From positions 1-37,356 of IMG/VR virus record IMGVR_UViG_3300005264_000091: 37,356 nt of DNA; one strand, 5' to 3'. This stretch comes from a virus. Under the pieces are notes generated by a model. That model was not told the DNA's origin. It ran no database searches and saw only the letters and a list, made by a program, of their open reading frames with translations. The stretch's first letter is position 1. Each line of letters opens with the position of its first letter. Shown here piece after piece: positions 3,676 to 36,301 of the stretch. A program made the translations under genes and the position numbers.

Positions 3676-4854
3676 CTACGCCTCACTTGCCCATGTGCTG
3701 GTTAGGGTTACAGCCTGCAATACCGCCAGACCATCACCTGCAACTTCAACATCGACGGCTGGGCTGGTGATATTGACCTTTTTCACGCCGTCCACTGCCA
3801 ACACTGCCCAGCGCAACAGATCGAGCGGCAAATCCTGACCAATCTTCAGCGGCGGCACATCACTGACATTTTCCACCTGCTCAAACATTGCCCGAACCCG
3901 CGCTTCAGCTTGTGCTTCAATGTCGACCGGAGCACCATGGGTCAGTACTAGCTCGGCAACGATAGTGACATTGATTGGAGTGGGAGACTTAACAAGCACA
4001 TCATCATTGATCGGCTGTTTCTCATCACCGTTTCCAGTGCCTTTAATTACGGTGTCGACCTCGTCAATCAACGCCTGAGTTGGCATCCCAGCTGCACCCT
4101 TGAGCACAACATCCACCGTGCCTTGTCCTCGTGGGTGCTGATCAAGTATCGTTGCGGCCACCACACCAGTCACACTGCGTGCCCAAGCTTCGTACGCATG
4201 CTTGGTTGCGCCATTCAGCCCCGTCCACGCTAGCGTGTAACGCTCGAACAACGGGGGATCTAACTCGGCATTGGTTCCTTCACTACTTAACCAATCCGCA
4301 CGGTTTTCAACCGTATCAATGCCGTCAATGGTGGTAACAATCTCGCAAATTTGGCCCGTGGTAACATTGCCGCCTTGGCCATACTCTTCAGCAATCACCT
4401 CAACTGCAATCTCCGTTTCACCATCAATCAGCACGACATCGGCAACGGTAACAAAGCGGTAAACTTGCCCCATGCCATCAGGTAGGGTTCTAACAATACG
4501 GCCAGCTTGAAGCGGCACATTGCCAACAGGATCAACACGCATCAAGTAGATTAGACCCTTCGCCTTCGTAGCCACCTTGCGGTACACATCCACCTGTTTG
4601 CAGTGCAAATCTAACCACGGCCCTGTGGCCGAATCAGCAAACGCTTGCTTAAGTACCACCGCCAAAAATTGATACAGTTGATAGAGACCCCACGCCCATA
4701 TCTCGATCAGGCCACGCACGATCCCTTTATTTAAGTTGAGGCGGTTCGGTAGCCACCCTTTAGCGGCGTACTCCTCTTGTTTGTCATTGATCCGATCAAA
4801 TAGACTTTGACGAATTTCATCGAGACTACGGTTAACCAATTCGCGGATTAACAT
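3676..4854 (-). CDS. baseplate J-like protein (Mu gp47)
   Basis: This 392-aa protein has the baseplate J/gp47 pattern: an N-terminal helical part (NLNKGIVRGLIEIWAWGLYQLY), KGLIYLMRVDPVGNVPLQAG, the conserved GGNVTTGQI and TVENRADWLSSEGTNAELDPPLFERYTLAW region and a C-terminal domain with QALIDEVDTVI. It forms the baseplate wedge. Its start (ATG 4854) overlaps the end of the gp46 gene by 23 bp and its stop touches the tail protein I gene, consistent with coupled translation. Confidence 0.9.
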   Translation of the reverse strand: MLIRELVNRSLDEIRQSLFDRINDKQEEYAAKGWLPNRLNLNKGIVRGLIEIWAWGLYQLYQFLAVVLKQAFADSATGPWLDLHCKQVDVYRKVATKAKGLIYLMRVDPVGNVPLQAGRIVRTLPDGMGQVYRFVTVADVVLIDGETEIAVEVIAEEYGQGGNVTTGQICEIVTTIDGIDTVENRADWLSSEGTNAELDPPLFERYTLAWTGLNGATKHAYEAWARSVTGVVAATILDQHPRGQGTVDVVLKGAAGMPTQALIDEVDTVIKGTGNGDEKQPINDDVLVKSPTPINVTIVAELVLTHGAPVDIEAQAEARVRAMFEQVENVSDVPPLKIGQDLPLDLLRWAVLAVDGVKKVNITSPAVDVEVAGDGLAVLQAVTLTSTWASEA

Positions 4855-5266
4855 CTTTGATCACCATCTCCTGTTTGACGCTGTCCATTTCGATCACCAA
4901 GTTAAACGGATGATCTTCATCAATAAACTGCCACTCGCAGCGAGCAGTTATTCCAACTTCGTTCCAACTGATAATTTTGCAAGCTGAAGTTCCTGGTACA
5001 ACGCGTGGATCAAGCTGCACACGTCGCTCCACTTCAGTCTCAAAACCCATGCGGTTGGCAGACGTGTTCTCCTCTTTAATCCACTGATAAATCAGCGCGC
5101 CAAACTCAATGTCATAAAACAGTTCACCCAATGGTTGGCGTAGACGTAACTGAATATCTTGCACACCTGTCTCAACGCCTTCGGTCAGTATAAGTTCACC
5201 GTTGGCGGCCACCATCGCTTGACCCGCCGTATCGAGCTTTATGTCCTGTCCGTAAATGTCAGTCAT
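4832..5266 (-). CDS. baseplate protein gp46 (gp25/GPW-like)
   Basis: This is a 144-aa protein of the Mu gp46/GPW-gp25 class. Features are LRQPLGELFYDIEFGALIYQWI, RRVQLDPRVVPG and a C-terminal VIEMDSVKQEMVI strand. ATG 5266 is preferred over the upstream GTG 5272 because AAGGG lies 5 nt before it. It is an inner baseplate wedge component and sits between spike gp45 and gp47 as in Mu. Confidence 0.85.
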   Translation of the reverse strand: MTDIYGQDIKLDTAGQAMVAANGELILTEGVETGVQDIQLRLRQPLGELFYDIEFGALIYQWIKEENTSANRMGFETEVERRVQLDPRVVPGTSACKIISWNEVGITARCEWQFIDEDHPFNLVIEMDSVKQEMVIKDVNPRIG

Positions 5267-5274
5267 ATCCACCC

Positions 5275-6021
5275 TTAATGATTGTGGTTGCTGGTATTGC
5301 CGCCCTCATCAATGATTGATCCTGAGGCGCGAATATTGCCCTCCACATCAAAGTCACCAATCAACTTAAAACTACCCGTTTGTTCGGTATTCGCTGTCTT
5401 GGTTTCGGTTGCCGTACCACCACCAGCGGCCGAGGTGGAAACATTGCCTAACAGGTTAATTTGCGGTGCCTGAATCGTGGCACTTGTTGCAGCTTTAATA
5501 GCGGCTGAACCACCAACATTAATATTCCAATCTGCACCGACTGTTTCTGTTTTATTGCCGCCGATCTCATTGATGCGATCGCTTGGTGTTTTATGGACAA
5601 TGTTTCCTTCAGCAGTGATCTTGATATAAACACCGGGCTTCTGCTGAATGATAAAACCACCCAATTCACACACAGGTGCTTTGTTGCTTTGCCAGCGGAA
5701 ATTCGAAAGACGCGGATAATCTGGATCACCATCGTAGTAGGTGATATCGCACAGCGTACCAACCTCGGGCGGACACACCACTCCGCGCTCTGGCCCTCCC
5801 CATAAAATGGGGATCTCTACTTTAGGGATGACCGGTTCATTGTTGTCGACACTGTCATCGTTACGCAGGGGCTGCACATCGGCGTAGTAACGACCATCAC
5901 TTGCATAGCTCTTCACCACCAGCCCCTTGCGCGGCATCCGATAGTAAGCACGCAAGTTCGGCATCACCAATTCAACGACCCGCTTGAGCAAATTCTTTAA
6001 ATCTGAATTAGACCCAGCCAT
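5275..6021 (-). CDS. baseplate central spike gp45
   Basis: This 248-aa protein corresponds to Mu gp45, the membrane-piercing spike. ATG 6021 is chosen because GGAG lies 6 nt upstream and the gene then overlaps the hub gene by 14 bp. It has an OB-fold-like N-terminal half (GLVVKSYASDGRYYADVQPL, GTLCDITYYDGD) and a C-terminal beta-helix-like part (INVGGSAAIKAATSATIQAP, INLLGNVSTSA). The protein ends SNHNH: the terminal H-x-H matches the iron-binding tip of Mu/P2 spikes. Confidence 0.88.
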   Translation of the reverse strand: MAGSNSDLKNLLKRVVELVMPNLRAYYRMPRKGLVVKSYASDGRYYADVQPLRNDDSVDNNEPVIPKVEIPILWGGPERGVVCPPEVGTLCDITYYDGDPDYPRLSNFRWQSNKAPVCELGGFIIQQKPGVYIKITAEGNIVHKTPSDRINEIGGNKTETVGADWNINVGGSAAIKAATSATIQAPQINLLGNVSTSAAGGGTATETKTANTEQTGSFKLIGDFDVEGNIRASGSIIDEGGNTSNHNH

Positions 6022-6811
6022 TTTCAACTCCGTAATCGATGAGTGTTCGCACTTTGGTTGGTTCAATTGCTTGCTCAACCCGCAACGCTCGATGTTTAGC
6101 CTCTATACCTCGCTTAACATCCTTGATGCCAAACTGCTGGCTATGCCGCAAACTAGGCTGCAACAAAGAGATAATTCGACTTCGGCCAAAGGGATCAAAA
6201 TTAGGCTCGTGGGTTAATAATCCAGCTCCTGTAGCAATAACAGGTACTGGTCCTGGTTCATCAAAATCACCCCAATTCACCCCCGCACTACCAAGCCACA
6301 GCGCCCAATGGCTCATGTCGAGATCAAATGCTTTTTGACAACTAGCGGCAATCTGGCGTACCAACTGCCACACCGTTATATTGCTGGCCACGACCTTTGG
6401 TAGCACCCTGCCTGTTTGACTAATGCGACCAAGCGGCAAGCCTGTTTGACGTATGGCGTATGCCACAATGGCCTCTGGTGTTTCGTTCTCCCACACCTGA
6501 GTGAGGAGGGTGGTGGTCAGAGGTAAAGCCTTGTCGACAGCGCGAATCTCAATTTGATCGCGGGTTGTTCCTTGGCAAATCCGTTGCACCGTACCGTTCC
6601 AAATTGCTGGCTGTTGGTTGCGATAGCCGAGCTGGATCTGCACGACGTCGTCACGCTTGAAGTTGCGGAATAACTCAGCAGTGGCATCGGGCAAGGTCAA
6701 CGTTGCCACCTGGAGCGGCCGATGCCGTTCCGATACAATCACACAGCGCGGACAGCGTAGAATATGTGATCTACCAATCGTTATATGGGTGCGTATTCCT
6801 GAAATTTGCAT
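6008..6811 (-). CDS. baseplate hub protein gp44 (gpP-like)
   Basis: This is a 267-aa protein in the Mu gp44 (P) position. It contains LTLPDATAELFRNFKRDDVVQIQLGY and IWNGTVQRI, typical of hub proteins related to P2 gpD/T4 gp27, and VWQLVRQIAASCQKAFDLD in the second half. ATG 6811 overlaps the stop of the preceding gene (TAATG). At 267 aa it is shorter than Mu gp44, which is over 370 aa, so part of the hub may be supplied by the preceding gene. Confidence 0.75.
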   Translation of the reverse strand: MQISGIRTHITIGRSHILRCPRCVIVSERHRPLQVATLTLPDATAELFRNFKRDDVVQIQLGYRNQQPAIWNGTVQRICQGTTRDQIEIRAVDKALPLTTTLLTQVWENETPEAIVAYAIRQTGLPLGRISQTGRVLPKVVASNITVWQLVRQIAASCQKAFDLDMSHWALWLGSAGVNWGDFDEPGPVPVIATGAGLLTHEPNFDPFGRSRIISLLQPSLRHSQQFGIKDVKRGIEAKHRALRVEQAIEPTKVRTLIDYGVENGWV

Positions 6812-25930: not shown

Positions 25931-26245
25931 TTACCCAAACAAATCTATCTGACGCGGATCAACGGCATTCACCCGCTCCCACGTCTGGTTTCGATCTAGG
26001 TACGAAACCAGCTCGTCATACCGAACACGGCGCGACCGACTCAGCATATAGCTATCGAGGCAAGCTGGCACAATGAGTGTTTCAGTAAGTGGATCCATTT
26101 CGTATGCGGCAACTAACCGCCAAAACGTGCGATCAGAAATACCCATGATGCGCTGGACTTCACCGGGGCCGTAACTGGCCTTTGATGGGATGTTTGAAAC
26201 TTTAAGCATCCCTTTTAATTTTTGTTCTGCCAGTTTTGCGTTCAT
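25931..26245 (-). CDS. helix-turn-helix protein (excisionase/MerR-like)
   Basis: This 104-aa protein starts ATG 26245 behind AAAGGAGG. The centre, KASYGPGEVQRIMGISDRTFWRLVAAYE, is a winged-helix DNA-binding pattern as in excisionase-type proteins, followed by a SRSRRVRYDELVSYLDRNQT helix. It is the last gene of the early operon before the accessory cassette. In Mu the corresponding place holds the middle-gene activator Mor and late activator C; this protein is not recognisably Mor/C but could serve as a late-stage regulator. A hammerhead ribozyme occupies its 5' UTR. Confidence 0.75.
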   Translation of the reverse strand: MNAKLAEQKLKGMLKVSNIPSKASYGPGEVQRIMGISDRTFWRLVAAYEMDPLTETLIVPACLDSYMLSRSRRVRYDELVSYLDRNQTWERVNAVDPRQIDLFG

Positions 26246-26257
26246 TGTGCCTCCTTT

Positions 26258-26321
26258 GGCTGCTCATCAGTACTGGGCCACCACGCCCAGTAGACCGGCC
26301 CCCGTAGGGGCGCGGTTTCGC
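26258..26321 (-). ncRNA. type II hammerhead ribozyme, copy A
   Basis: Read on the minus strand: GC-GAAA, stem III CCG...CGG closing a GCCCC-TACG-GGGGC hairpin, cleavage triplet GTC (C at 26293), stem I TACTGGGC-GTGGTG-GCCCAGTA (8 bp perfect, 26292-26271), then CTGATGA (26270-26264) and GC pairing back to the GC before GAAA (stem II). All core nucleotides of the hammerhead are present in the right order. Stem II is the open helix, so it is type II. It ends in AGCC, which can pair with GGT in loop I, and lies 6 nt before the Shine-Dalgarno of the next gene. Confidence 0.88.
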
Positions 26322-26328
26322 TTTAGGT

Positions 26329-26508
26329 TCTCGAGATCACAATTTGTGATCTCGAGATTTAACTAAGTAGCGGGAAGATTACTTCCCAATTTGCGCCGAC
26401 GAAATTCGTCGGTGCAACCTTTTCAGCTTCGGCTTTCAATCGGCGGGTTTTCGAACCGGTAACAATTTGGTACCGGTTCCTTATCTTGAGGTGACAATTT
26501 GTCACCTC
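26329..26508. repeat. cluster of five palindromes with CAAATTG-like centres
   Basis: Five palindromes follow each other: 26329-26357 (14-bp arms TCTCGAGATCACAA), 26372-26387 (GGGAAG-ATTA-CTTCCC), 26392-26416 (12-bp arms, one mismatch, core CCGACGAA), 26453-26479 (arms GAACCGGTAACAA, one mismatch) and 26488-26508 (10-bp arms GAGGTGACAA). Arms differ completely, but four share an AATTT/AAATT centre. The region also holds a second copy of AAAGCCGAAGCTGAAAA, the end of the ORF6N gene. No start-led gene is seen here. Confidence 0.85.
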
Positions 26509-26526
26509 GGTCTTATCTAGTTGATT

Positions 26527-27144
26527 TTAACTAAGTTTTTCAGCTTCGGCTTTAAACCAGTTTACAATTGTGCTGGATAAGCGTCCGAGGGTTTTGCCGA
26601 TGTCTGTATCGGTGGCCCCTTGTGCTCTGGCGTTTCTCATAAAGGCCTTTTCTTCCTCGGTGAACCTCTTGCGGGTTTTCCCCTTAAGAACATCAAGTTC
26701 AAGCTCTTGGAACTCAATAAGGCGGTCTTTTTTTATAACGCAGCTATCATTCGGCAGCTCCACCATATTGACTGGTGGGGTCAGAGTTAGGGCAACACCC
26801 TGCTTGACGGCAAAATAACAACGCACCAGGCCGCGCTGAATCTTCCAGGCGTGATCATCGGTGAAGGTTTTGGTCAGTACGAGGTAGCCGGTTTCGGTCA
26901 AAAGGGTTATATCGCCAGGCGCATGCTTTGATACCGCCTCCGGGAACTGCGTACGCAATACGTCCGCAGTTGCTGTAACGCAATCTTCTCCTTCAATAAA
27001 ACGTTCACGATGCTTATTGAAAGTTCTTCGTGCAGTCCCTTCCGGCCGCTCGTGCAGTTCATCGACCATTTTGAGGGTCAGCACCGGTTGATCTTCGTAG
27101 ATCATCGGTACGATTTCTTTTCCCATAATATTGATCAGTTCCAT
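26527..27144 (-). CDS. ORF6N-domain antirepressor-like protein
   Basis: This 205-aa protein starts ATG 27144 behind AGGAGG. Residues 15-105 form an ORF6N (KilA-N-related) domain: VLTLKMVDELHERPEGTARR, TFNKHRERFIEGEDC, TETGYLVLTKTFTDDHAWKI and QRGLVRCYFAVKQG. The C-terminal part is a homeodomain-like helix-turn-helix (RFTEEEKAFMRNARAQGATD, TDIGKTLGRLSSTIVNWFKA). Such proteins serve as antirepressors in P1 (Ant) and other phages. An icd-like leader and C4-like RNA lie upstream, as in the P1 c4-icd-ant operon. Confidence 0.85.
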   Translation of the reverse strand: MELINIMGKEIVPMIYEDQPVLTLKMVDELHERPEGTARRTFNKHRERFIEGEDCVTATADVLRTQFPEAVSKHAPGDITLLTETGYLVLTKTFTDDHAWKIQRGLVRCYFAVKQGVALTLTPPVNMVELPNDSCVIKKDRLIEFQELELDVLKGKTRKRFTEEEKAFMRNARAQGATDTDIGKTLGRLSSTIVNWFKAEAEKLS

Positions 27145-27161
27145 GGTTATGCCTCCTGTGG

Positions 27162-27392
27162 TTAGGCTGTACTGAGTTTTTCACATATAACTTCGGTTGT
27201 TGCGTTAAGCAACTGGCGAGTTTCCCACATAATGAGAGCGAGGCCGATTTGGCCATGCTCGCTAAGGCGAAACTCTTCATTGACGGCGATAGGCTGCGTG
27301 AGGGCATCGTGCAAAAATGCCAATTTGTGCGATACATCATCGAGAGAATCTTGAGGGCGGCTGTCATTGATCTGCGGGTGGGGACTACACAT
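27162..27392 (-). CDS. small helical protein before the antirepressor gene
   Basis: A 76-aa protein from ATG 27392 (GGAG 8 nt upstream) reads MCSPHPQINDSRPQDSLDDV, then SHKLAFLHDALTQPIAVNEE, RLSEHGQIGLALIMWETRQL, ending in ICEKLSTA. Two helices separated by a short linker are predicted. It shares its frame with the longer icd-like reading frame that extends to 27677, so it may be either the true gene or the C-terminal part of that protein. It lies 17 bp upstream of the ORF6N gene. Confidence 0.7.
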   Translation of the reverse strand: MCSPHPQINDSRPQDSLDDVSHKLAFLHDALTQPIAVNEEFRLSEHGQIGLALIMWETRQLLNATTEVICEKLSTA

Positions 27393-27677
27393 GATATGTG
27401 CTCCCATGCTGGGAATTAACCCTTTTTGCGCTACTAAACGCAAAAAGGGCGAGATAATCAGGTTAGTAGACCGCGCATAGGAAGCGGCGAGCCCGAAGGC
27501 TCCCTGACTACCTCGCCCAAACGGAGCGAAATAGACGGACAAAAAAACCACCAAAGCAAACACAGTGGTGGTTATTATCCACCTACGCAACGAGCTACTA
27601 AACCCGTATTGCTGGATTTTGCCAGCAACGGGGCAAGCATAGCCTTGTGCGATTTTATTTGTCAAGCTGGTTTTCAT
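27162..27677 (-). CDS. Ash/Icd-like leader reading frame (171 aa)
   Basis: The frame is open from ATG 27677 through the structured leader to 27162. Its N-terminal half, with IQQYGFSSSLRRWIITTTVF, VFLSVYFAPFGRGSQGAFGL and ARSTNLIISPF, has the odd composition of Ash/Icd-type ORFs that overlap C4 antisense RNAs of P1/P4-like phages. ATG 27677 overlaps the stop of the preceding gene. Whether the full frame or only the part from 27392 is translated is uncertain; the RNA structure may be the real function of the upstream half. Confidence 0.5.
   Translation of the reverse strand: MKTSLTNKIAQGYACPVAGKIQQYGFSSSLRRWIITTTVFALVVFLSVYFAPFGRGSQGAFGLAASYARSTNLIISPFLRLVAQKGLIPSMGAHIMCSPHPQINDSRPQDSLDDVSHKLAFLHDALTQPIAVNEEFRLSEHGQIGLALIMWETRQLLNATTEVICEKLSTA
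27420..27449 (-). promoter_or_regulatory. 11-bp hairpin with TTTAGTAG loop before the icd-region gene
   Basis: On the minus strand CCCTTTTTGCG-TTTAGTAG-CGCAAAAAGGG is a perfect 11-bp hairpin. Its loop repeats the TTTAGTAG of the C4-like RNA (27602-27595) and is complementary to CTACTAA at 27469-27463. The downstream box could therefore pair either with the RNA in cis/trans or with this loop, a possible switch ahead of the ATG at 27392. Confidence 0.6.
27541..27573 (-). terminator. leader terminator in icd/ant region
   Basis: On the minus strand AACCACCA, a 12-nt loop and TGGTGGTT form an 8-bp perfect stem followed directly by TTTTT. It lies inside the Ash/Icd-like frame, so it would work as an attenuator when the leader is not translated and would give the C4-like RNA its 3' end. 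Confidence 0.75.
27541..27645 (-). ncRNA. C4-like antisense RNA in icd/ant leader (candidate)
   Basis: On the minus strand a strong hairpin forms: CCCGT-TGCTGG, loop CAAAAT, CCAGCA-AT-ACGGG. Then GGTTTAGTAGCTCG (27604-27591) and a terminator stem AACCACCA/TGGTGGTT with a T-run (27573-27541). GGTTTAGTAG can pair, with one bulged base, with CTACTAACC at 27469-27461 downstream on the same strand. Short leader RNA, complementarity to downstream icd sequence and a following antirepressor gene are the elements of the P1/P4 C4 system. Exact ends are guesses. Confidence 0.5.
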
Positions 27678-28602: not shown

Positions 28603-28799
28603 TCAGTGCCTCGTTTGACTGTCAATTCAACTTCTAGTGGTGTCTCTTTTTGAAACATGTAGGCGAGAAAGAGTGCCATGGCAACTTCAAAGCAGTAGTG
28701 CCCTTCGAGGTTGAAATCTGCTCCTTTGAACATCACTGAATAAATTGAAAGAAACAGATAAAAGCAAAATGCAGCTATATAGTTTTTTGGTGTTTTCAT
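28599..28799 (-). CDS. small membrane protein in early operon
   Basis: This 66-aa protein starts at ATG 28799, overlapping the GemA stop (ATGA); an earlier TTG/ATG start within gemA is less likely. It has two hydrophobic segments, NYIAAFCFYLFLSIYSVMF and YCFEVAMALFLAYMF, and a short charged C-terminus (ELTVKRGTE). Small two-segment membrane proteins in early phage operons often alter host membrane functions or exclude other phages; no specific family is recognised. Confidence 0.7.
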   Translation of the reverse strand: MKTPKNYIAAFCFYLFLSIYSVMFKGADFNLEGHYCFEVAMALFLAYMFQKETPLEVELTVKRGTE

Positions 28800-29218
28800 C
28801 TCTCTATATCCCATCCCTCTTTTTTGCCCTGTTTGATAAGCGCAGTGATAATACCGCGTAGCTTCGTTGTATCTTTCAAAAAGGTGACGCTATCAACCTT
28901 GTACATCCGCTTGGCCAACGCATCGCCGTAGCTCCAAGGCTTATTGCCAACGGTGAGCAATGCTTCAATTTTTTTGATGTGTCGGGCGCGACTACCAGCT
29001 TGATCTGCATTCTTAGGCCGACGCTTTTGAGGCTTTGCCTTCCAGCCAAGGCTTTCAAAATGCTTGATGAGTTCAAGGCGCTCATGCCTGTTCAATTTTG
29101 CGCTTGAGTCGGTCTTCCCGTTACTGATCATGTCAATTGCAGCGCGGTAGGTGGAATCATCAAGTTGTAAATCTTTTTTAGCGATGTGGATTTTTGCCAA
29201 CAGTGGATCCATAGCCAT
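28796..29218 (-). CDS. gemA: GemA regulator (Mu gp16, DUF1018)
   Basis: This is a 140-aa protein with the GemA/DUF1018 pattern: LLAKIHIAKKDLQLDDSTYR, AAIDMISNGKTDSSAKLNRH, LELIKHFESLGWK and a basic linker (PQKRRPKNADQAGSRARHIK). The C-terminal half (WSYGDALAKRMYKVDSVTFL, RGIITALIKQGKKEGW) is also typical. In Mu, GemA modulates host gene expression, replication and DNA supercoiling. ATG 29218 has AGAGG 7 nt upstream. Confidence 0.9.
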   Translation of the reverse strand: MAMDPLLAKIHIAKKDLQLDDSTYRAAIDMISNGKTDSSAKLNRHERLELIKHFESLGWKAKPQKRRPKNADQAGSRARHIKKIEALLTVGNKPWSYGDALAKRMYKVDSVTFLKDTTKLRGIITALIKQGKKEGWDIER

Positions 29219-29578: not shown

Positions 29579-29623
29579 AAAAAAAAGCCCAGAGACGTGA
29601 AAGGAGGAGAAACGCCTCTGGGC
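29579..29623 (-). terminator. rho-independent terminator-like hairpin in early operon
   Basis: On the minus strand GCCCAGAG and CTCTGGGC form an 8-bp stem, extended by CGT/ACG after one mismatch, followed by a run of seven Ts. It lies between ribozyme copy B and the 53-aa gene. If active it would limit expression of gemA and later early genes, or act as an attenuator between early segments. Confidence 0.75.
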
Positions 29624-29649
29624 ATAACAACAATCTTGGTTTCAATCTT

Positions 29650-29731
29650 GGCTGCTCATCAGATCAGGATCGCCGCACCCTGATGACCGCGATCACCTTG
29701 CCAATGGCGGCAAAATGATCGCGGTTTCGCA
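29650..29731 (-). ncRNA. type II hammerhead ribozyme, copy B
   Basis: On the minus strand: TGC-GAAA, stem III CCGCGATCA...TGATCGCGG (9 bp perfect, capped by TTGCC/GGCAA), cleavage triplet GTC (C at 29685), stem I ATCAGG...CCTGAT (6 bp, 29684-29663), CTGATGA (29662-29656), then GCA pairing with TGC (stem II), then AGCC. Core bases are identical to copy A while every stem has a different sequence. Loop I has GGC, complementary to GCC after stem II. It begins directly after the stop codon at 29733. Confidence 0.9.
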
Positions 29732-29732
29732 T

Positions 29733-29954
29733 TTATGAAATCATCACGGCTTCACTAAAGGAGAGCAGTAGTGACTCGCCCATTGGATCAATACATAGTG
29801 TGCTGTCGGGTAGGTGAGAAAGTGCATCGCGTAGCTTGCCTACAGTGTCAACATCGTCTATTTCAACAGCGGGTGGTTCACGATGGTGCTGTGCGGCAAA
29901 ATATGCCTCTTTTGATGGATAGCTTTTATCCCAAACTGTTACGCCCATTGCCAT
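29733..29954 (-). CDS. small early protein, unknown
   Basis: This 73-aa protein starts ATG 29954 with AGGAGG 5 nt upstream. It reads MAMGVTVWDKSYPSKEAYFA, AQHHREPPAVEIDDVDTVGK, LRDALSHLPDSTLCIDPMGE and SLLLSFSEAVMIS. It is mixed alpha/beta, and unassigned. It is read just after the DUF3164 gene and its stop codon abuts hammerhead copy B. Confidence 0.72.
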   Translation of the reverse strand: MAMGVTVWDKSYPSKEAYFAAQHHREPPAVEIDDVDTVGKLRDALSHLPDSTLCIDPMGESLLLSFSEAVMIS

Positions 29955-29970
29955 TATTGCCTCCTGATTT

Positions 29971-30579
29971 TTAACCTAATGCAATCATTTGATAGCTGCC
30001 GTCTTCTTGCTGCTCATAAACCCGCACATAGGTCTTTGACCCTGTCACTTGCAAGCTTTCGCCTATGGCGGTCATGGCTCTTTTCCAGCGATCGTCAGCA
30101 ATTTCTAAGCGGCGCAAACTGAGAATACGCTTGGTGTCGACGCGGCCTTCCTTATCGACCTGAAAGGCATCGTTCACCAGCGCCATAATTTCAACAGCTG
30201 CTCCCTTGCTCCAACCGTGAATACATTCATCAATCAATGACTTGGCTACCTGTAGGCGTTCATCAAAAACAAGTTGGTCGTTAATGGCACGACATACCTT
30301 AAATTTTCCATCAAATGATGTGAGAGTGATGTTTCCTTTTGTACCGCCTAACTTGGCTCCAAATCGTTCAAAACTAAGTTCTGCAAAGGCTTCGATATCA
30401 CCCATCAATCCAAGTTTGAAATCATTGAGCAGGTTTGACATGCGCTTACTGTTAACAACGATCTCTCGCACAAGGCTGTCGCGGGTTCGATCAATCTCGC
30501 TAATGGTTTCGAGGGGGATAAGTCGTCCCACTCGGTCTTCCATGTAGCCTTCTGGTATTTGTTTTACTGTCGCTTCCAT
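29971..30579 (-). CDS. DUF3164 family protein
   Basis: This 202-aa protein starts ATG 30579 with AAAAGGAGA upstream. DUF3164 segments: IPEGYMEDRVGRLIPLETIS, EIDRTRDSLVREIVVNSKRM, FERFGAKLGGTKGNITLTSF and DGKFKVCRAINDQLVFDERL. The family is typical of Mu-like early operons, between transposition genes and gemA; its function is unknown. Helices at the N-terminus and a basic strand-rich centre suggest a nucleic-acid or protein-binding role. Confidence 0.87.
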   Translation of the reverse strand: MEATVKQIPEGYMEDRVGRLIPLETISEIDRTRDSLVREIVVNSKRMSNLLNDFKLGLMGDIEAFAELSFERFGAKLGGTKGNITLTSFDGKFKVCRAINDQLVFDERLQVAKSLIDECIHGWSKGAAVEIMALVNDAFQVDKEGRVDTKRILSLRRLEIADDRWKRAMTAIGESLQVTGSKTYVRVYEQQEDGSYQMIALG

Positions 30580-31118: not shown

Positions 31119-31704
31119 GGGTGCCCCCTTTTGCGCTCCAGACGACCTCATTAGTGTTGGGATCGAAAATCTGTTGAACACGCTGAATTTGTGGTGGTTT
31201 TGGGCCTGTGTGTCTCATGAGGCGATAAGCTCCAGCTGCGCCACCTTTGCCGCCTGACATTTTTAAATACTTAGCTTTTGTGAGTGCTTGGCAGTATTTC
31301 TTGGCAGTGTTTTCCTTGATTTGACAATCTTCAGTGCTTGCTTTGATGGCGAGCTCTGTGGCGGTGAAGGCTTTGAGAATGCGCATGGTGCGCCACAGAT
31401 TAATATTGCCTTGCCCTTGGGTTACGTGAGTGCCGTCGGTGCGTACTCTTGGAGCATCAATGCCTACATCCTTAATCAAGGTGTAAAGTGTCAACGGCCG
31501 ACCAGGAGCTTCACGCTTGCCCACCATCTTTAAATATCCAGCATTAGTTAACCCTGTCATGTAATCCCGAACCGACTCAGGCTTTAAGCTGGTGTGGACC
31601 CTAACGTCAGTAACGGTGAATTCAGTACGCAGTGCTCGTATCACTTTCCAAACGGCATTGCGGCTATCAATACCGTTGAGCTTATCTAGTGGTTTACGTG
31701 CCAT
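31111..31704 (-). CDS. double winged-helix DNA-binding protein
   Basis: This 197-aa protein starts ATG 31704, overlapping the ATPase stop (TAATG) with GGAGG upstream. Two similar halves are seen: NAVWKVIRALRTEFTVTDVR with GLTNAGYLKMVGKREAPGRP, and LWRTMRILKAFTATELAIKA with ALTKAKYLKMSGGKGGAAGA. Each is a winged helix ending in a YLKM wing, so an internal duplication is clear. It lies directly after the transposition ATPase, so a role in replicative transposition or target control is likely. Confidence 0.82.
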   Translation of the reverse strand: MARKPLDKLNGIDSRNAVWKVIRALRTEFTVTDVRVHTSLKPESVRDYMTGLTNAGYLKMVGKREAPGRPLTLYTLIKDVGIDAPRVRTDGTHVTQGQGNINLWRTMRILKAFTATELAIKASTEDCQIKENTAKKYCQALTKAKYLKMSGGKGGAAGAYRLMRHTGPKPPQIQRVQQIFDPNTNEVVWSAKGGTHE

Positions 31705-32438
31705 TACAGCCTCCGTGCTGGCGCGCTGCCAGTGTAGAGTGGACGTGTACCCCAATCTTCAAGGGTGATTTCGTCGTAGCCCATGTTGACGGCCTCGGTG
31801 CGAATTTGCTCGATGTTGACGCAAATACGGCGAACAGATCCATCAGATGCTTTGTAGACTTTTTCGAGCAAGTTGCTCTCGATTTCAATCTCTGGGCAGT
31901 AGAGTTTTGCTAGGGATAAGCAGTCTTTAAAGTCGGCTGGCTGTGCTGGAACCCAGTCGAGTATGCGACTATGGAAACGCTCCCAGCGTTCTAGTTTTTT
32001 TGGTAGCCGTTCTTCGCCGATGAGCAGTATGGCTGCGCCTGATCCTTCGTGTAGATCGCGGATAATCTCGACCACTTTCTTTTCAGCGAGATAGTCCATT
32101 TCATCGACAATGAGTGGACGCTCAGAGCAGGCAAGTTGCTCGCAGATTTGATCGGTCATCCCGTAGATTGTGCCTGTATCTGGCAAACCCATCTCTTTGA
32201 GTATGGCCTGCAGAACAGCTTTGCGGCTCCACGTGCTTTTGCACTCTATGTAGTAGGCTCCTGTTTTATTGGCGGTGTAGGCTGCAGCGGTACTCTTGCC
32301 GAACCCTGCGGGGCCGTACATGCAAACCATGCCGGGTAAGTGGGCTGGGCGTTTCATTGCGGCCTCGAGTGCGCTGTGGCACAGTGCCACGTTTGCAAGG
32401 GCTGCGACGGTGTTGCTTGATTGGGCATTAACTGTCAT
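31704..32438 (-). CDS. transposition ATPase (MuB/TniB-like AAA+)
   Basis: This 244-aa protein starts ATG 32438 (GAGGAAACAGT upstream). Walker A is GPAGFGKST (42-50), Walker B PLIVDEMD (108-115), sensor-like ILLIGEERLPKKLERWERFH follows. It is an AAA+ ATPase of the type that pairs with DDE transposases and delivers target DNA. MuB is 312 aa and has an N-terminal helix-turn-helix domain that is missing here, so this resembles the TniB/ExeA-like short form. It follows the transposase gene by 72 bp. Confidence 0.9.
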   Translation of the reverse strand: MTVNAQSSNTVAALANVALCHSALEAAMKRPAHLPGMVCMYGPAGFGKSTAAAYTANKTGAYYIECKSTWSRKAVLQAILKEMGLPDTGTIYGMTDQICEQLACSERPLIVDEMDYLAEKKVVEIIRDLHEGSGAAILLIGEERLPKKLERWERFHSRILDWVPAQPADFKDCLSLAKLYCPEIEIESNLLEKVYKASDGSVRRICVNIEQIRTEAVNMGYDEITLEDWGTRPLYTGSAPARRL

Positions 32439-32463
32439 ACTGTTTCCTCCTGTCATACAAAGG

Positions 32464-32506
32464 CTCATTCATTGAGCCGGTTTAAGCCACGTTACAGCGT
32501 GGCTTT
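32464..32506. other. two small hairpins between transposase and ATPase genes
   Basis: GGCTCA-TTCAT-TGAGCC (32462-32478 area) and AAGCCACG-TTACAG-CGTGGCTT with adjacent Ts on the plus strand lie in the 72-bp gap. They could process or stabilise the mRNA junction. On the minus strand the second hairpin lacks a T-run, so it is not a clear terminator for the early operon. Confidence 0.45.
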
Positions 32507-32510
32507 TTCT

Positions 32511-34598
32511 TTATTGGTTGATTGCCAAATCTGCTTCCATCTCTTTAAACGATTGCCAGATCGGTGTTCGCGGGAACGCTTTGTAAAACTTTTGCAGGTG
32601 AGTATCTATCTCGTGCCCTGCATGGTGTTGTGCATCGAGATCGCACCAGAGGCGGTACTTATCGCGGTTGTTGTGTGGGATCTCAATTTGTTCGGTTGTT
32701 TCCATCTCGGCTATGAGTTTCTCACGGGCTTCAACCACATCGGGCTGTGCGGTGATCGTAATAACTCCGTTGCGTTCTTCGTGTATCTCATCAAGCTTGT
32801 TCATCGCCCGTTTCTTGCGCCCCAAAAAGCGCAGTTCTCGGGCATATTCAACGGCAGACTCCTCAAACTTATCGGATTTGTTTTTTTCAAACGTTGCTCG
32901 GCAGATCAGCCTATCTTCCATGTCGCGCACCAAAACAAAACTTCCATCTTGAGGTTCGTATTCGATAAAAACCTGCTCACCGTGGTAAGGCTCAAGCTTA
33001 GAGCTGGAATAGGTGTTGCAAAAAAGGCGCACTTCGCATCGGTTGCATTTGACCTGCTGGCGTGGTCGAAAGAGGTCTGTCAGTTCTTTTGGCTCTACGG
33101 TTTCAGGCACCCAGCCTTGTGCTAGGTGCATGTTCCAGCATTCTTGCGGGGTCATGTGGCGTCTGTTTCCCCCAGCGTCGGTGATTTTTTCCAAACCGCT
33201 ATGTGGGGTGTTGTTGTAGCGCTCAACCGCCACCGCACAGAGGTCTAGAAACTGCGGCCAACTTGGGAGTAAATTACTGCTGCCGGGGTTCTTAATCTCC
33301 TTGAGGAGCAAGCGATCTGTCTTGTGGGCAATGCTGCCATCCATGTCCTTACCCATATAGGTTGGCAGTTGCTTGGCGGCGCGAATCCATAACGATTTTT
33401 GCATTCTTTCGACCATACCTCGGGCTTGGCTATTGCCGACAATGCCAGTTTTGTAAGTGATGCCAAGTCGGGCGTAGCGACCAAAGGCAGGGTGAGCATT
33501 CACTGCGGCCTTGTTACCGCTGCCTGGGTCGGTGTAAAAGATGGCTGGAATACCGCCGCAGGGCTTATCTTCGCTGGTACTGATAGCATGACGCAGAGCA
33601 TCTGCAACGGTTTCGGCAGATTCGGCTAAGCCGACAGACCAGCCAGTGACCATACGGGTTGCGCTGTCGATTACGGCACAGCATTCTGGTTTAAATGGGC
33701 GACCATGTACTGGGTGAGCCACTTTGGCTTTAAAGCTGTGGCCATCACATTCGACAACGTCAAGCGGCAGCAAATTTGAGGTATCGCGACGACGAAAGCC
33801 TTTGAGTGCTTTGATCTCTTTAGTGCTCATGCGGCCTTTGTGCTGATCGACATTGCTCATTTTTGCCAACAGCCTGTAGCACTGTGATTGGCTAGGCATT
33901 TTGATCTCTTTGGGGATGATCAGCTTCAGCTCATCTAATGCGTCTTGTACACTGGGTTTTTGTGGCTTTTGATAGCACTTTAAAAACCATGGAGCATAAG
34001 CGGGAACTTCACGCTTTCTGGTTTGTTTTGGGGCGAGCGCTGTGTTACCTAATGCGGCAAGTTCACGCCAGCGGTAGATAGTGCGGCGCGACAGCACGTT
34101 TTTACCTTTGCCGCCCGCGCTGCGAGCATTAGCGATAGGAACCAATGCTTGTATGTGTGGCGGTAATACGTCGTTCTCAGCTTGAGTGATAACTTGATCT
34201 ATTGCTTTATTTAGGCTGTGTGCTTGCGCTACAGAATCAATTAATTTCAAAATGACATAACGGGCGTTCATGGTGCTGCGCTGCCAGCCAGCTAAACGTG
34301 CTGAGTCTGGCAGATCGGCAATCTCTGCTGGTAAATTCGTATTAGTTGCTGCCGGTAGATTGCAGCTTGGTTCAGGTACTTCAGCGATAGCGGTATTGAG
34401 TAGGGAGTCTTGTGCTTGCGTTGGTAGGCTGCTGATATGGTATTCAAACGCTTTTGTGCCAACCTTTTTTCGGCTTTGCCACTCATCGCGTTTGGCCCGA
34501 CGCTTAACGCCACTTTCAGACGCTGGGGTTTTTGGCAGCTTCAGCTCTGCTAGATCCCCAGCTGTAAACCATTCTTTAATGTCTGTTTTAACACTCAT
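32511..34598 (-). CDS. MuA-type DDE transposase
   Basis: This is a 695-aa protein starting ATG 34598. Order of domains: N-terminal winged helix (IKEWFTAGDLAELKLPKTPA), end-binding helical domains (60-200, with LSRRTIYRWRELAALG), catalytic core and C-terminal domain with CNRCEVRLFCN. The catalytic triad is probably D285 (VVECDGHS), D357 (FYTDPGSGN) and E397 (ARGMVERMQ). It joins phage ends to target DNA for integration and replicative transposition. Its 5' UTR has hammerhead copy C. Confidence 0.95.
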   Translation of the reverse strand: MSVKTDIKEWFTAGDLAELKLPKTPASESGVKRRAKRDEWQSRKKVGTKAFEYHISSLPTQAQDSLLNTAIAEVPEPSCNLPAATNTNLPAEIADLPDSARLAGWQRSTMNARYVILKLIDSVAQAHSLNKAIDQVITQAENDVLPPHIQALVPIANARSAGGKGKNVLSRRTIYRWRELAALGNTALAPKQTRKREVPAYAPWFLKCYQKPQKPSVQDALDELKLIIPKEIKMPSQSQCYRLLAKMSNVDQHKGRMSTKEIKALKGFRRRDTSNLLPLDVVECDGHSFKAKVAHPVHGRPFKPECCAVIDSATRMVTGWSVGLAESAETVADALRHAISTSEDKPCGGIPAIFYTDPGSGNKAAVNAHPAFGRYARLGITYKTGIVGNSQARGMVERMQKSLWIRAAKQLPTYMGKDMDGSIAHKTDRLLLKEIKNPGSSNLLPSWPQFLDLCAVAVERYNNTPHSGLEKITDAGGNRRHMTPQECWNMHLAQGWVPETVEPKELTDLFRPRQQVKCNRCEVRLFCNTYSSSKLEPYHGEQVFIEYEPQDGSFVLVRDMEDRLICRATFEKNKSDKFEESAVEYARELRFLGRKKRAMNKLDEIHEERNGVITITAQPDVVEAREKLIAEMETTEQIEIPHNNRDKYRLWCDLDAQHHAGHEIDTHLQKFYKAFPRTPIWQSFKEMEADLAINQ

Positions 34599-34613
34599 AT
34601 CAACATCCTATTT

Positions 34614-34682
34614 GGCTACTCATCAGGCCAAAGCCGCCATGCTTTGACGACCGCCACCAGTGTGTACTGCTGTCGGTTTCGT
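34614..34682 (-). ncRNA. type II hammerhead ribozyme, copy C
   Basis: On the minus strand: AC-GAAA, stem III CCG...CGG with an inner imperfect hairpin CAGCAGT/ACTGGTG, cleavage triplet GTC (C at 34649), stem I GTCAAAGC-ATGGCG-GCTTTGGC (8 bp, one G-T wobble, 34648-34627), CTGATGA (34626-34620), then GT pairing with the AC before GAAA (stem II), then AGCC. Stem II is GC/GC in copy A and GT/AC here, a compensatory change. Loop I has GGC, complementary to GCC. Cleavage would fall 50 nt before the transposase ATG. Confidence 0.9.
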
Positions 34683-34751
34683 TTTTAAAAACTTCCTCAC
34701 TTTGTGCTACTCTGTGAAGGCTCAGAACACATTTCACACAAAGGAGAAAAA

Positions 34752-34985
34752 CTATGAATGACGAACAAGAACTGCTCGAAAACATCTTGACCGCTGAGGA
34801 ACGATCTTCGCTCCTCCTTCTTCTACGGTAAGCCCTGGGTTGTTCGCATCAACGCGGTGGGTGTAAGCTAAAAGCGCTTCTGCCTCAGTGAGAACCCACC
34901 GCGCCTCACTGATCCTTACCCCATCAAGCAGCTTCACAATTTCATGCGCTGTCGAGTATGCTTCTTTTGCAGTCATTTCTTTCAT
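34752..34985 (-). CDS. 77-aa early protein upstream of transposase
   Basis: ATG 34985 overlaps the preceding stop (ATGA) behind GGGGGGAG. The N-terminal 50 residues (MKEMTAKEAYSTAHEIVKLL, DGVRISEARWVLTEAEALLA) are a convincing helical domain. The last 18 (KIVPQRSRCFRAVLVRHS) look less natural and are antisense to a small rightward frame, so the gene may have been shortened or altered at its 3' end. No function is recognised. Confidence 0.65.
   Translation of the reverse strand: MKEMTAKEAYSTAHEIVKLLDGVRISEARWVLTEAEALLAYTHRVDANNPGLTVEEGGAKIVPQRSRCFRAVLVRHS
34754..34831 (+). CDS. 25-aa rightward peptide antisense to early gene (tentative)
   Basis: AAAGGAG with 7-nt spacing precedes ATG 34754, and the frame reads MNDEQELLENILTAEERSSL then LLLLR to TAA 34831. 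The ribosome site is one of the best in the area and the peptide is a charged amphipathic helix. An inverted repeat TGTGAA/TTCACA (about 34711-34738) precedes it. It overlaps the end of the 77-aa gene on the other strand. It could be a true small gene or the decayed start of a former rightward gene. Confidence 0.35.
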   Translation: MNDEQELLENILTAEERSSLLLLLR

Positions 34986-35458
34986 AACTCTCCCCCCTCA
35001 ATTACTGCCAATAGCGCCTTGCGCTTACGCTTTTGTGCTCGTGCCGCGCTCTCGGCTTCATCGTATTGTTGTATCTCCGCTCGCAGTGCATCAGGTGCTT
35101 GCAGGGCATAAATTCCAGCAGCATCGGCAAGTACACGTATAGGTGCTGTAGATCCGGTGGCATGACAAAGTGCCGGCAAAAATTCGGCAGGTAAGCGATG
35201 AGGGTGACTGTCAGCAACCCAGCTATTGATCATATGAATGCTGATCTCGGCTCCTGTGAGTAAGCTCAGTTCATCCGCGATGGTTTCACGACTCTTAGGA
35301 GCTTGCTTGATCGCCTGCTTTACCGCCGCTAACAACTTCACCGACACACACATTGTTCCTGGTGCATGTTCAATGCGCTCGCAGCGCTGCTGAGTCAGTA
35401 AATCGAACAAGCTCATTTGCTTGTCATTGATAACAGTTTTTTGTTTTCTATTTGTCAT
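34982..35458 (-). CDS. early DNA-binding-type protein
   Basis: This 158-aa protein starts ATG 35458. It has MSLFDLLTQQRCERIEHAPG, AVKQAIKQAPKSRETIADEL and LTGAEISIHMINSWVADSHP, a helix-turn-helix-like region, then LPAEFLPALCHATGSTAPIR and a basic tail RAQKRKRKALLAVIEGGEL. Proteins of this make-up occur between ner and transposase in Mu-like phages; the exact role is unknown. It overlaps the next gene by 4 bp. Confidence 0.78.
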   Translation of the reverse strand: MTNRKQKTVINDKQMSLFDLLTQQRCERIEHAPGTMCVSVKLLAAVKQAIKQAPKSRETIADELSLLTGAEISIHMINSWVADSHPHRLPAEFLPALCHATGSTAPIRVLADAAGIYALQAPDALRAEIQQYDEAESAARAQKRKRKALLAVIEGGEL

Positions 35459-35494
35459 TGCCTCACCCTAACTACCTTGGTAGTATTGCCAACA

Positions 35495-35692
35495 TCAGGC
35501 CGCGTACTGTTTAAATAATTTTTCTACTGGCACACCGAGCTTGCTTGCAATCGCGTTAGCAATTCGACGGCTTGACCAACGTCCGTGGATCACGCCATTT
35601 ACAGTGACAGGGCTAACCCTTAAAGCTATTGCGATTTCGATTTGAGACACGTCTTTTTCAACCATTAAGGCGCGTATTTTTCGTGGGGTCAT
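35495..35692 (-). CDS. Ner/Cro-like early regulator
   Basis: This 65-aa protein starts at ATG 35692, with GGAG 6 nt upstream; ATG 35704 has none. It is a single helix-turn-helix domain: MTPRKIRALMVEKDVSQIEI, AIALRVSPVTVNGVIHGRWS and a C-terminal ASKLGVPVEKLFKQY. Position, as first leftward gene opposite the repressor, is that of ner, which shuts down repressor and early promoters in Mu. Confidence 0.88.
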   Translation of the reverse strand: MTPRKIRALMVEKDVSQIEIAIALRVSPVTVNGVIHGRWSSRRIANAIASKLGVPVEKLFKQYAA

Positions 35693-35706
35693 TGGAGTCT
35701 CCATCT

Positions 35707-36063
35707 ATGATTGATGTTGTGCATTCTATCTCTGATATCATTAATTCAATCTTGGCAATTCTCGCGAGTATTATTGCTATTGCTCCTGTGGTAAAAAGGC
35801 GCTGGGATAAAGCCAAATCAAAAAAGATAGAAACAACCCCAAACGTCACTGCAAGCTGTCCAATTGGCAACAGTAAAGAATCAAGGTACGGCAGTTTTTT
35901 CATGTCTGACATGGGAGCTATTCTCCTTTTGTTTTCATTGGCTAACTTATTATTTATGCCTTTTTTCACAGCCAATAATGCAGACTTAACTCTAGGCAAT
36001 TTATGCAGCGTTGCCGTTGCATCTTGCGGAGTAATTGTTGGCTATATGGCGGTTAACAAATAA
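35707..36063 (+). CDS. small membrane protein divergent from ner
   Basis: This 118-aa protein starts ATG 35707 behind GGAG. Hydrophobic segments: ISDIINSILAILASIIAIAP, MGAILLLFSLANLLFMPFF and LCSVAVASCGVIVGYMAVNK, with a basic cytosolic loop (VVKRRWDKAKSKKIETTP). It is on the repressor strand, between repressor and ner, with only 14 bp between its ATG and that of ner. Its promoter must lie inside ner. Lysogenic expression and membrane location suggest a superinfection or immunity-linked role; this is inference. Confidence 0.72.
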   Translation: MIDVVHSISDIINSILAILASIIAIAPVVKRRWDKAKSKKIETTPNVTASCPIGNSKESRYGSFFMSDMGAILLLFSLANLLFMPFFTANNADLTLGNLCSVAVASCGVIVGYMAVNK

Positions 36064-36301
36064 GCCCACAACAGGGGTGTTTATACTGGCTCATAGGGCC
36101 TCCTTTTTTTACTTTTAAAGCCTAACTTCTTTTGTTTTGTGGGGTCAGAATTGCACATAATTATACGCATGTCAATATAAAGTTACGCGGTCAGTTTCTC
36201 TTTTTGCGCACGTTGTGCGAATAATCATAAACTGCCTATATTATCAACAGCTTACGTACAATCTGACCTTTTTGTGCTTGGTCAGATTCGAGGTCAGATT
36301 C
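36064..36301. promoter_or_regulatory. repressor/early control region with GGTCAGA boxes
   Basis: No gene is seen in these 238 bp. A GGTCAGATT-type box occurs five times: 36143-36151, 36189-36197, 36260-36268 (inverted), 36280-36288 and 36292-36300, probably operators for the repressor or Ner. A leftward promoter-like TTGACA and TATAAT pair lies near 36152-36176, and TTGCAC...AATATA on the plus strand near 36151-36178 may serve the repressor. An inverted repeat CGCAC-GTT-GTGCG is at 36206-36218. Which sequences act as promoters is uncertain. Confidence 0.6.

Follow-up and report, generated by a model that had tools for sequence, protein, structure and literature searches.

The window, the whole stretch of 37,356 nucleotides analysed here, is a Mu-like phage genome or prophage that fills one whole contig. 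The first part of the minus strand carries, in order, a CII-like regulator, a 77-aa ORF, a predicted hammerhead ribozyme (HHR1), MuA, MuB, small genes, DUF3164 and ORF 29733-29954. These are followed by a second hammerhead (HHR2), a terminator, GemA, small genes, a C4 RNA, the ORF6N antirepressor and a third hammerhead (HHR3), beyond which lie a small protein with a weak helix-turn-helix match and then others including the Mu-type portal and Mu F. HHR1 adjoins the early regulator operon on one side and the MuA transposase ORF on the other: 67 nt separate its start from the 77-aa ORF, and 11 nt, including AGGA, lie between the end of its tail and the transposase start codon. The HHR3 tail continues into AAAGGAGG and the start codon of ORF 25931-26245. 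This ORF was considered as Mor and rejected, showing no similarity to the B3 Mor-like protein.

A scan for a separate transposase promoter found no sigma-70-like promoter on the minus strand of 34500-36300, which gives weak support to one transcript across the sites. A hairpin upstream of HHR1 (~34750-34692, then UUUUU) was discarded as a terminator because it was no better than shuffles (z -1.0). The C4 antisense RNA stands before the antirepressor, as in P1/P7-type immunity. It is a separate element of the RF01695 family, and HHR3 comes after the C4-antirepressor module. Hammerheads repeatedly adjoin an antirepressor region with a C4 antisense RNA nearby (window 26254-27518; L158, L414; genome locus L006/L019), and in L414 isrK also lies near this region.

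Table 1. Features of the window and hairpins of related loci
Feature	Position	Strand	Basis
CII-like regulator, upstream of HHR1	34982..35458	-	phrog_2345 5e-26
77-aa ORF	34752..34985	-	open reading frame
HHR1, type II hammerhead (predicted ribozyme)	34610..34684	-	RF02276 46.4 bits and descriptor hit
Predicted cleavage site, between C17 (34649) and N1.1 (34648)	34648..34649	-	core geometry
HHR1 stem I, 8 bp, 6-nt loop	34627..34648	-	fold; 96-100% pairing with covariation in 190 relatives
HHR1 GCCA tail, pseudoknot strand to UGGC 34639-34636 of loop I	34613..34616	-	descriptor, covariation in relatives
AGGA, putative Shine-Dalgarno of transposase gene	34606..34609	-	sequence
MuA-like transposase, 695 aa	32511..34598	-	phrog_310 4.3e-150; PF09299, PF02316
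MuB-like transposition ATPase	31704..32468	-	phrog_296 2e-66
DUF3164 protein, comparison anchor gene	29971..30579	-	PF11363 8.9e-79
HHR2, type II hammerhead, 17-bp stem III; directly after stop codon of ORF 29733-29954	29646..29732	-	RF02276 55.0 bits
Intrinsic terminator after HHR2, loop UUCUCCUCCUUUC (anti-Shine-Dalgarno), then U-run	29579..29625	-	hairpin; ~20 relatives
GemA (Mu gp16 family)	28796..29218	-	PF06252 8e-18
C4 antisense RNA, ahead of antirepressor gene	27447..27518	-	RF01695 53.1 bits
Antirepressor gene	26527..27144	-	phrog_4608
HHR3, type II hammerhead, between antirepressor region and ORF 25931-26245	26254..26323	-	RF02276 70.4 bits
Second GGAGGGGG-loop hairpin, L005	1622..1663		coding-strand coordinates
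Second GGAGGGGG-loop hairpin, L010	2422..2460		coding-strand coordinates
Second GGAGGGGG-loop hairpin, L014	1876..1912		coding-strand coordinates
Second GGAGGGGG-loop hairpin, L017	1895..1933		coding-strand coordinates
Second GGAGGGGG-loop hairpin, L409	8995..9039		

Identity and conservation of HHR1

The original prediction placed a type II hammerhead in the transposase leader at 34614-34682. An Rfam cmscan of the window matched RF02276 (Hammerhead_II) there over the full model, at 46.4 bits, above the gathering cut-off of 37 bits, and its bounds agreed with the predicted ones to within 4 nt. The E-value was 1.4e-6 over all 4227 Rfam families and 2.1e-8 when RF02276 alone was searched over the whole genome, where three places and no others were matched. 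The all-Rfam scan returned three Hammerhead_II elements and one C4 antisense RNA above cut-offs, all on the minus strand, so that the three elements expected in one early region were all recovered on the strand of HHR1. No RF02276 match was found in 14 control genomes, and the ribozyme descriptor gave 0 hits on 60 first-order Markov copies of the window.

All core elements were located by the descriptor and the fold in the order GAAA, stem III, GUC, stem I, CUGAUGA, with stems I and III closed and stem II open, which is the type II arrangement. C11.1 lies at 34681, GAAA at 34680-34677, stem III at 34677-34650, CUGAUGA at 34626-34620 and G10.1-U10.2 at 34619-34618. GUC precedes the cut, which the core geometry puts after C 34649, exactly where it had been predicted. 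The invariant core CUGANGA / GAAA / UH at the cut is present as CUGAUGA, GAAA and GUC, and the core-adjacent pairs are G-C (1.1-2.1), G-C (10.1-11.1) and A-U (15.1-16.1). Loop I and the tail can form a 4-bp pseudoknot (UGGC/GCCA). Stem II has 2 bp, A-U/C-G, while nearly all relatives have G-C/C-G; the change is compensated, and HHR1 alone among 190 collected examples has A-U at the second pair. These features indicate that HHR1 is, as judged from its sequence, a complete type II hammerhead and a predicted ribozyme.

Pairing was examined in 190 hammerhead-like sequences collected by a fixed 22-nt stem I segment, pairing in stem I or II not being required. Stem I pairs were formed in 96-100% of them, with G-C, C-G, A-U, U-A and wobble pairs at most positions, and the contact of loop I with the tail was paired in 99% and covaried (G-C 177, C-G 8). 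Median stem energies in the relatives were -14.0 kcal/mol for stem I and -13.4 kcal/mol for stem III, compared with roughly -5 for shuffles. The RF02276 consensus line appears to place the stem II pairs one base off: in that register 1-5% of sequences were paired, against 99% after the shift, and the offset partly explains the lower Rfam score of HHR1. Certain features of HHR1 count against the best explanation: it is the lowest-scoring of the window's three, its stem III has 1x1 mismatches, and for the 75-nt RNA on its own a competing fold of -22.9 kcal/mol was predicted in which stem I is open. When more flank was included, stems I and III were present in the minimum-energy fold. A chance match without ribozyme function is statistically refuted by the E-values, the zero shuffled hits, the covariation and the recurrence, and nothing was found in its favor, leaving it a negligible probability.

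The long stem III of many hammerheads that follow DUF3164 keeps a GATCATTTTGCCG-like arm (window 29692-29728; L007, L090, L111, L162, L178), which is conserved beyond pairing need and is possibly a protein-binding palindrome.

Gene junctions and probable division of the early transcript

The positions of hammerheads relative to genes were compared among related loci with a home-made descriptor and gene caller, related phages being counted as separate cases. Coding-strand descriptor hits were present in 32 of 80 viral contigs retrieved through the DUF3164 protein only (about 31, as L232 looks false), and coding-strand hammerheads in 28 of 51 contigs fetched by MuA; the antisense count was 0 in both sets. 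Among 277 genomes of the bacterial class, a hammerhead was found in 16 of the 26 with a MuA relative versus 14 of the 251 without (p 1e-11, indicative only, the genomes being related). A stop codon of an ORF of at least 60 codons lay within 10 nt upstream in 72% of 210 distinct hammerheads (4.5% of random positions), and a start codon with a Shine-Dalgarno 12-33 nt downstream in 61% (5.8%). Both were present in 47%, versus 0.43% of random positions in the same loci; many of the 210 were fetched by a hammerhead pattern, so these figures apply to hammerheads and not to phages in general. The stop codon and the ribozyme often share a base, the last of the one being the first of the other.

The window's three hammerheads share one strand and sit at borders between genes of a single phage operon, as in an operon-dividing cluster. 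An extreme case is L065 (IMGVR_UViG_3300017605_000570), where ten type II hammerheads occupy successive junctions of small ORFs within ~3 kb (3918-6748). Several hammerheads each were also seen in L042, L049, L141 and L142. No other ribozyme class was found at the same sites in nine hammerhead-free DUF3164 loci and ten MuA or named-phage loci.

From the sequence, covarying structure, position, strand bias and junction geometry, we infer cleavage, product stability and a regulatory effect. The best reading, to which we give a probability of about 0.77, is that the hammerheads divide the early transcript into segments, each translated and degraded on its own, with HHR1 cutting in the MuA leader. 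HHR1 RNA would fold during early transcription and cut itself after C34649. The upstream product, with the regulator and the 77-aa ORF, would end with the stem III hairpin and a 2',3'-cyclic phosphate, and the transposase mRNA would start with the stem I hairpin and a 5'-OH a few bases ahead of its Shine-Dalgarno. HHR3 would likewise divide the antirepressor region from ORF 25931-26245, and HHR2 would cut past ORF 29733-29954 and lead into the terminator. Types I and III hammerheads leave one product end open after cutting, whereas the type II geometry closes both, by stem III upstream and stem I downstream. Hairpin ends and 5'-OH slow RNA decay in bacteria. Given the closed hairpin ends, stable in relatives, and this general effect on decay, division of the transcript is the simplest reading.

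An unlikely alternative is that HHR1 does cleave, its purpose being control of translation through the stem I-tail pseudoknot beside the Shine-Dalgarno, and that division is a by-product. The GCCA strand of the pseudoknot is separated from AGGA by 3 nt, and in most relatives a Shine-Dalgarno comes directly after AGCC, as such control would suggest; however, spacing and Shine-Dalgarno strength vary, a group including phage DMS3 has no Shine-Dalgarno after the tail, and no well-marked gene start directly follows HHR2.

How widely the transposase leader is occupied bears on another alternative. Among the loci examined, a hammerhead lies directly before MuA in five phages (the window, L163, L159, L160, which is the same contig as L058, and L193), whose MuA is 59% identical to that of the window in L163 and 22-24% in L159, L160 and L193. 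None was found there in closer MuA relatives, for example L407-L409 and L414, nor in DMS3, B3 or phage HS6, nor in 29 other MuA-matching loci of the same bacterial class. The commoner site lies 3-7 kb further on, after DUF3164, where HHR2 sits. The transposase-leader site is therefore rare, a point that the original prediction had missed, and with so few relatives occupying it, cleavage there is not generally needed. This rarity, together with the lowest score of the three, would fit a reading in which HHR1 is a mobile ribozyme cassette, inserted occasionally or already decaying, that does not at present affect the transposase. Its intact core, the compensated A-U pair of stem II and the keeping of the same site in phages with such distant MuA proteins argue against that, and we consider it slightly less probable even than translational control. 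That the ribozymes cut and religate to give circular or spliced RNAs from the early transcript is very improbable: at least two hammerheads do flank gene blocks, a layout considered for this in PMC3088659, but such products were sought in that study and none was found, and nothing in the window points to ligation.

Transcript division by phage hammerheads is not new. Perreault et al. (2011) suggested processing of long phage transcripts to mRNAs the length of an operon or a gene (PMC3088659); in the same work type II hammerheads were shown to cleave, and clustered phage hammerheads cleaved in vitro and, for one cluster, in vivo. PMC10085705 and PMC4604425, citing Roth 2014 and Weinberg 2015, describe an association of hammerhead, twister and pistol ribozymes with Mu-like phage genes. 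The type, place, cut site and number of the elements in the original prediction thus stood, with a junction geometry that fits division, whereas its view of operon division as little described did not. HHR1 shares with Hammerhead_II RF02276 (PMC3088659) the topology, core, 8-bp stem I, 2-bp stem II, pseudoknot and occurrence in phage-operon clusters, differing in its A-U for the usual G-C second stem II pair. The prophage clusters of A. tumefaciens ardA, A. caulinodans and C. scindens (PMC3088659) likewise have several hammerheads flanking prophage genes with proposed processing; their genes differ, and they have been tested for cleavage, while those of the window are known from sequence. The phage group is that of the published Mu-like association, and what the window adds to it is separated operon positions, before MuA, after DUF3164 and after the antirepressor. 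Neither the transposase-leader position nor the terminator joined to HHR2 was found described in open-licence PMC texts.

The reason for hammerheads in bacteria and phages has been an open question since 2011. The divider idea gains concrete form from the junction geometry, the restriction to the sense strand and the closed hairpin that each type II product carries at its cut end. Moreover, the laboratory phage DMS3 of P. aeruginosa PA14 carries a type II hammerhead (NC_008717.1 8950-9021, locus L447, 66.2 bits), so the question is testable there; the ribozyme is flanked by DMS3-16 and by an ORF that starts at 9022. This ORF is in frame with the annotated DMS3-17 (start 9136), and no Shine-Dalgarno precedes 9022; DMS3-17 may be annotated too short.

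The terminator that follows HHR2

What comes after HHR2 is a conserved terminator whose loop carries an anti-Shine-Dalgarno sequence, rather than a well-marked gene start; this too was absent from the original prediction. After a gap of ~20 nt comes an 11-bp GC-rich hairpin with a U-run, whose loop contains CCUCC (CUCCUCCUUU), the sequence used by 16S rRNA to find start sites. The hammerhead-terminator pair occurs in ~20 related Mu-like phages, in which the stem sequences differ widely and the CCUCC loop is invariant. In loci not selected for the CCTCC motif, the loop was present in 13 of 14 strong terminators within 120 nt after a recognised hammerhead versus 8 of 533 elsewhere, and at least 3 of these 8 likewise come after hammerheads overlooked by the quick finder. 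A scan for the tail plus CCTCCT was too loose, with mostly chance-like matches, and was excluded from the counts. The pair was found in 10 of 13 hammerhead-positive genomes of the same bacterial order and was absent from the loci examined elsewhere in the class. Each stem pair of the terminator, counted from the stem base, was kept in 16-17 of 17, a partly circular count as the hairpins were selected for pairing. RNAalifold gave no structure on the terminator alignment, MAFFT having put stems of different length out of register.

It is possible, although we hold this tentatively, that HHR2 and its relatives make a small RNA of ~106 nt, with its 5′ end set by cleavage (29684) and its 3′ end by the terminator (~29579), whose CCUCC loop could pair with phage or host Shine-Dalgarno sequences and so switch translation. 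The terminator usually lies 10-30 nt ahead of the Shine-Dalgarno of the next gene, and the window's loop matches AAAGGAGG before ORF 25931-26245 over 8 nt. The targets could be the Shine-Dalgarno of the next gene, other early genes, or sites in trans. Pairing with the next gene alone is not favored, because the next start in the window has just AGGUG. If the pair does produce such an anti-Shine-Dalgarno RNA, it would represent a kind of ribozyme-processed regulatory RNA not found described in open-licence PMC texts, an absence that is itself weak evidence.

A second hairpin, its GGAGGGGG coding-strand loop complementary to the CCUCC loop, was observed before GemA in several loci (Table 1). It is terminator-like when read on the other strand, and is a candidate for either a partner of the CCUCC loop or an opposite-strand terminator.
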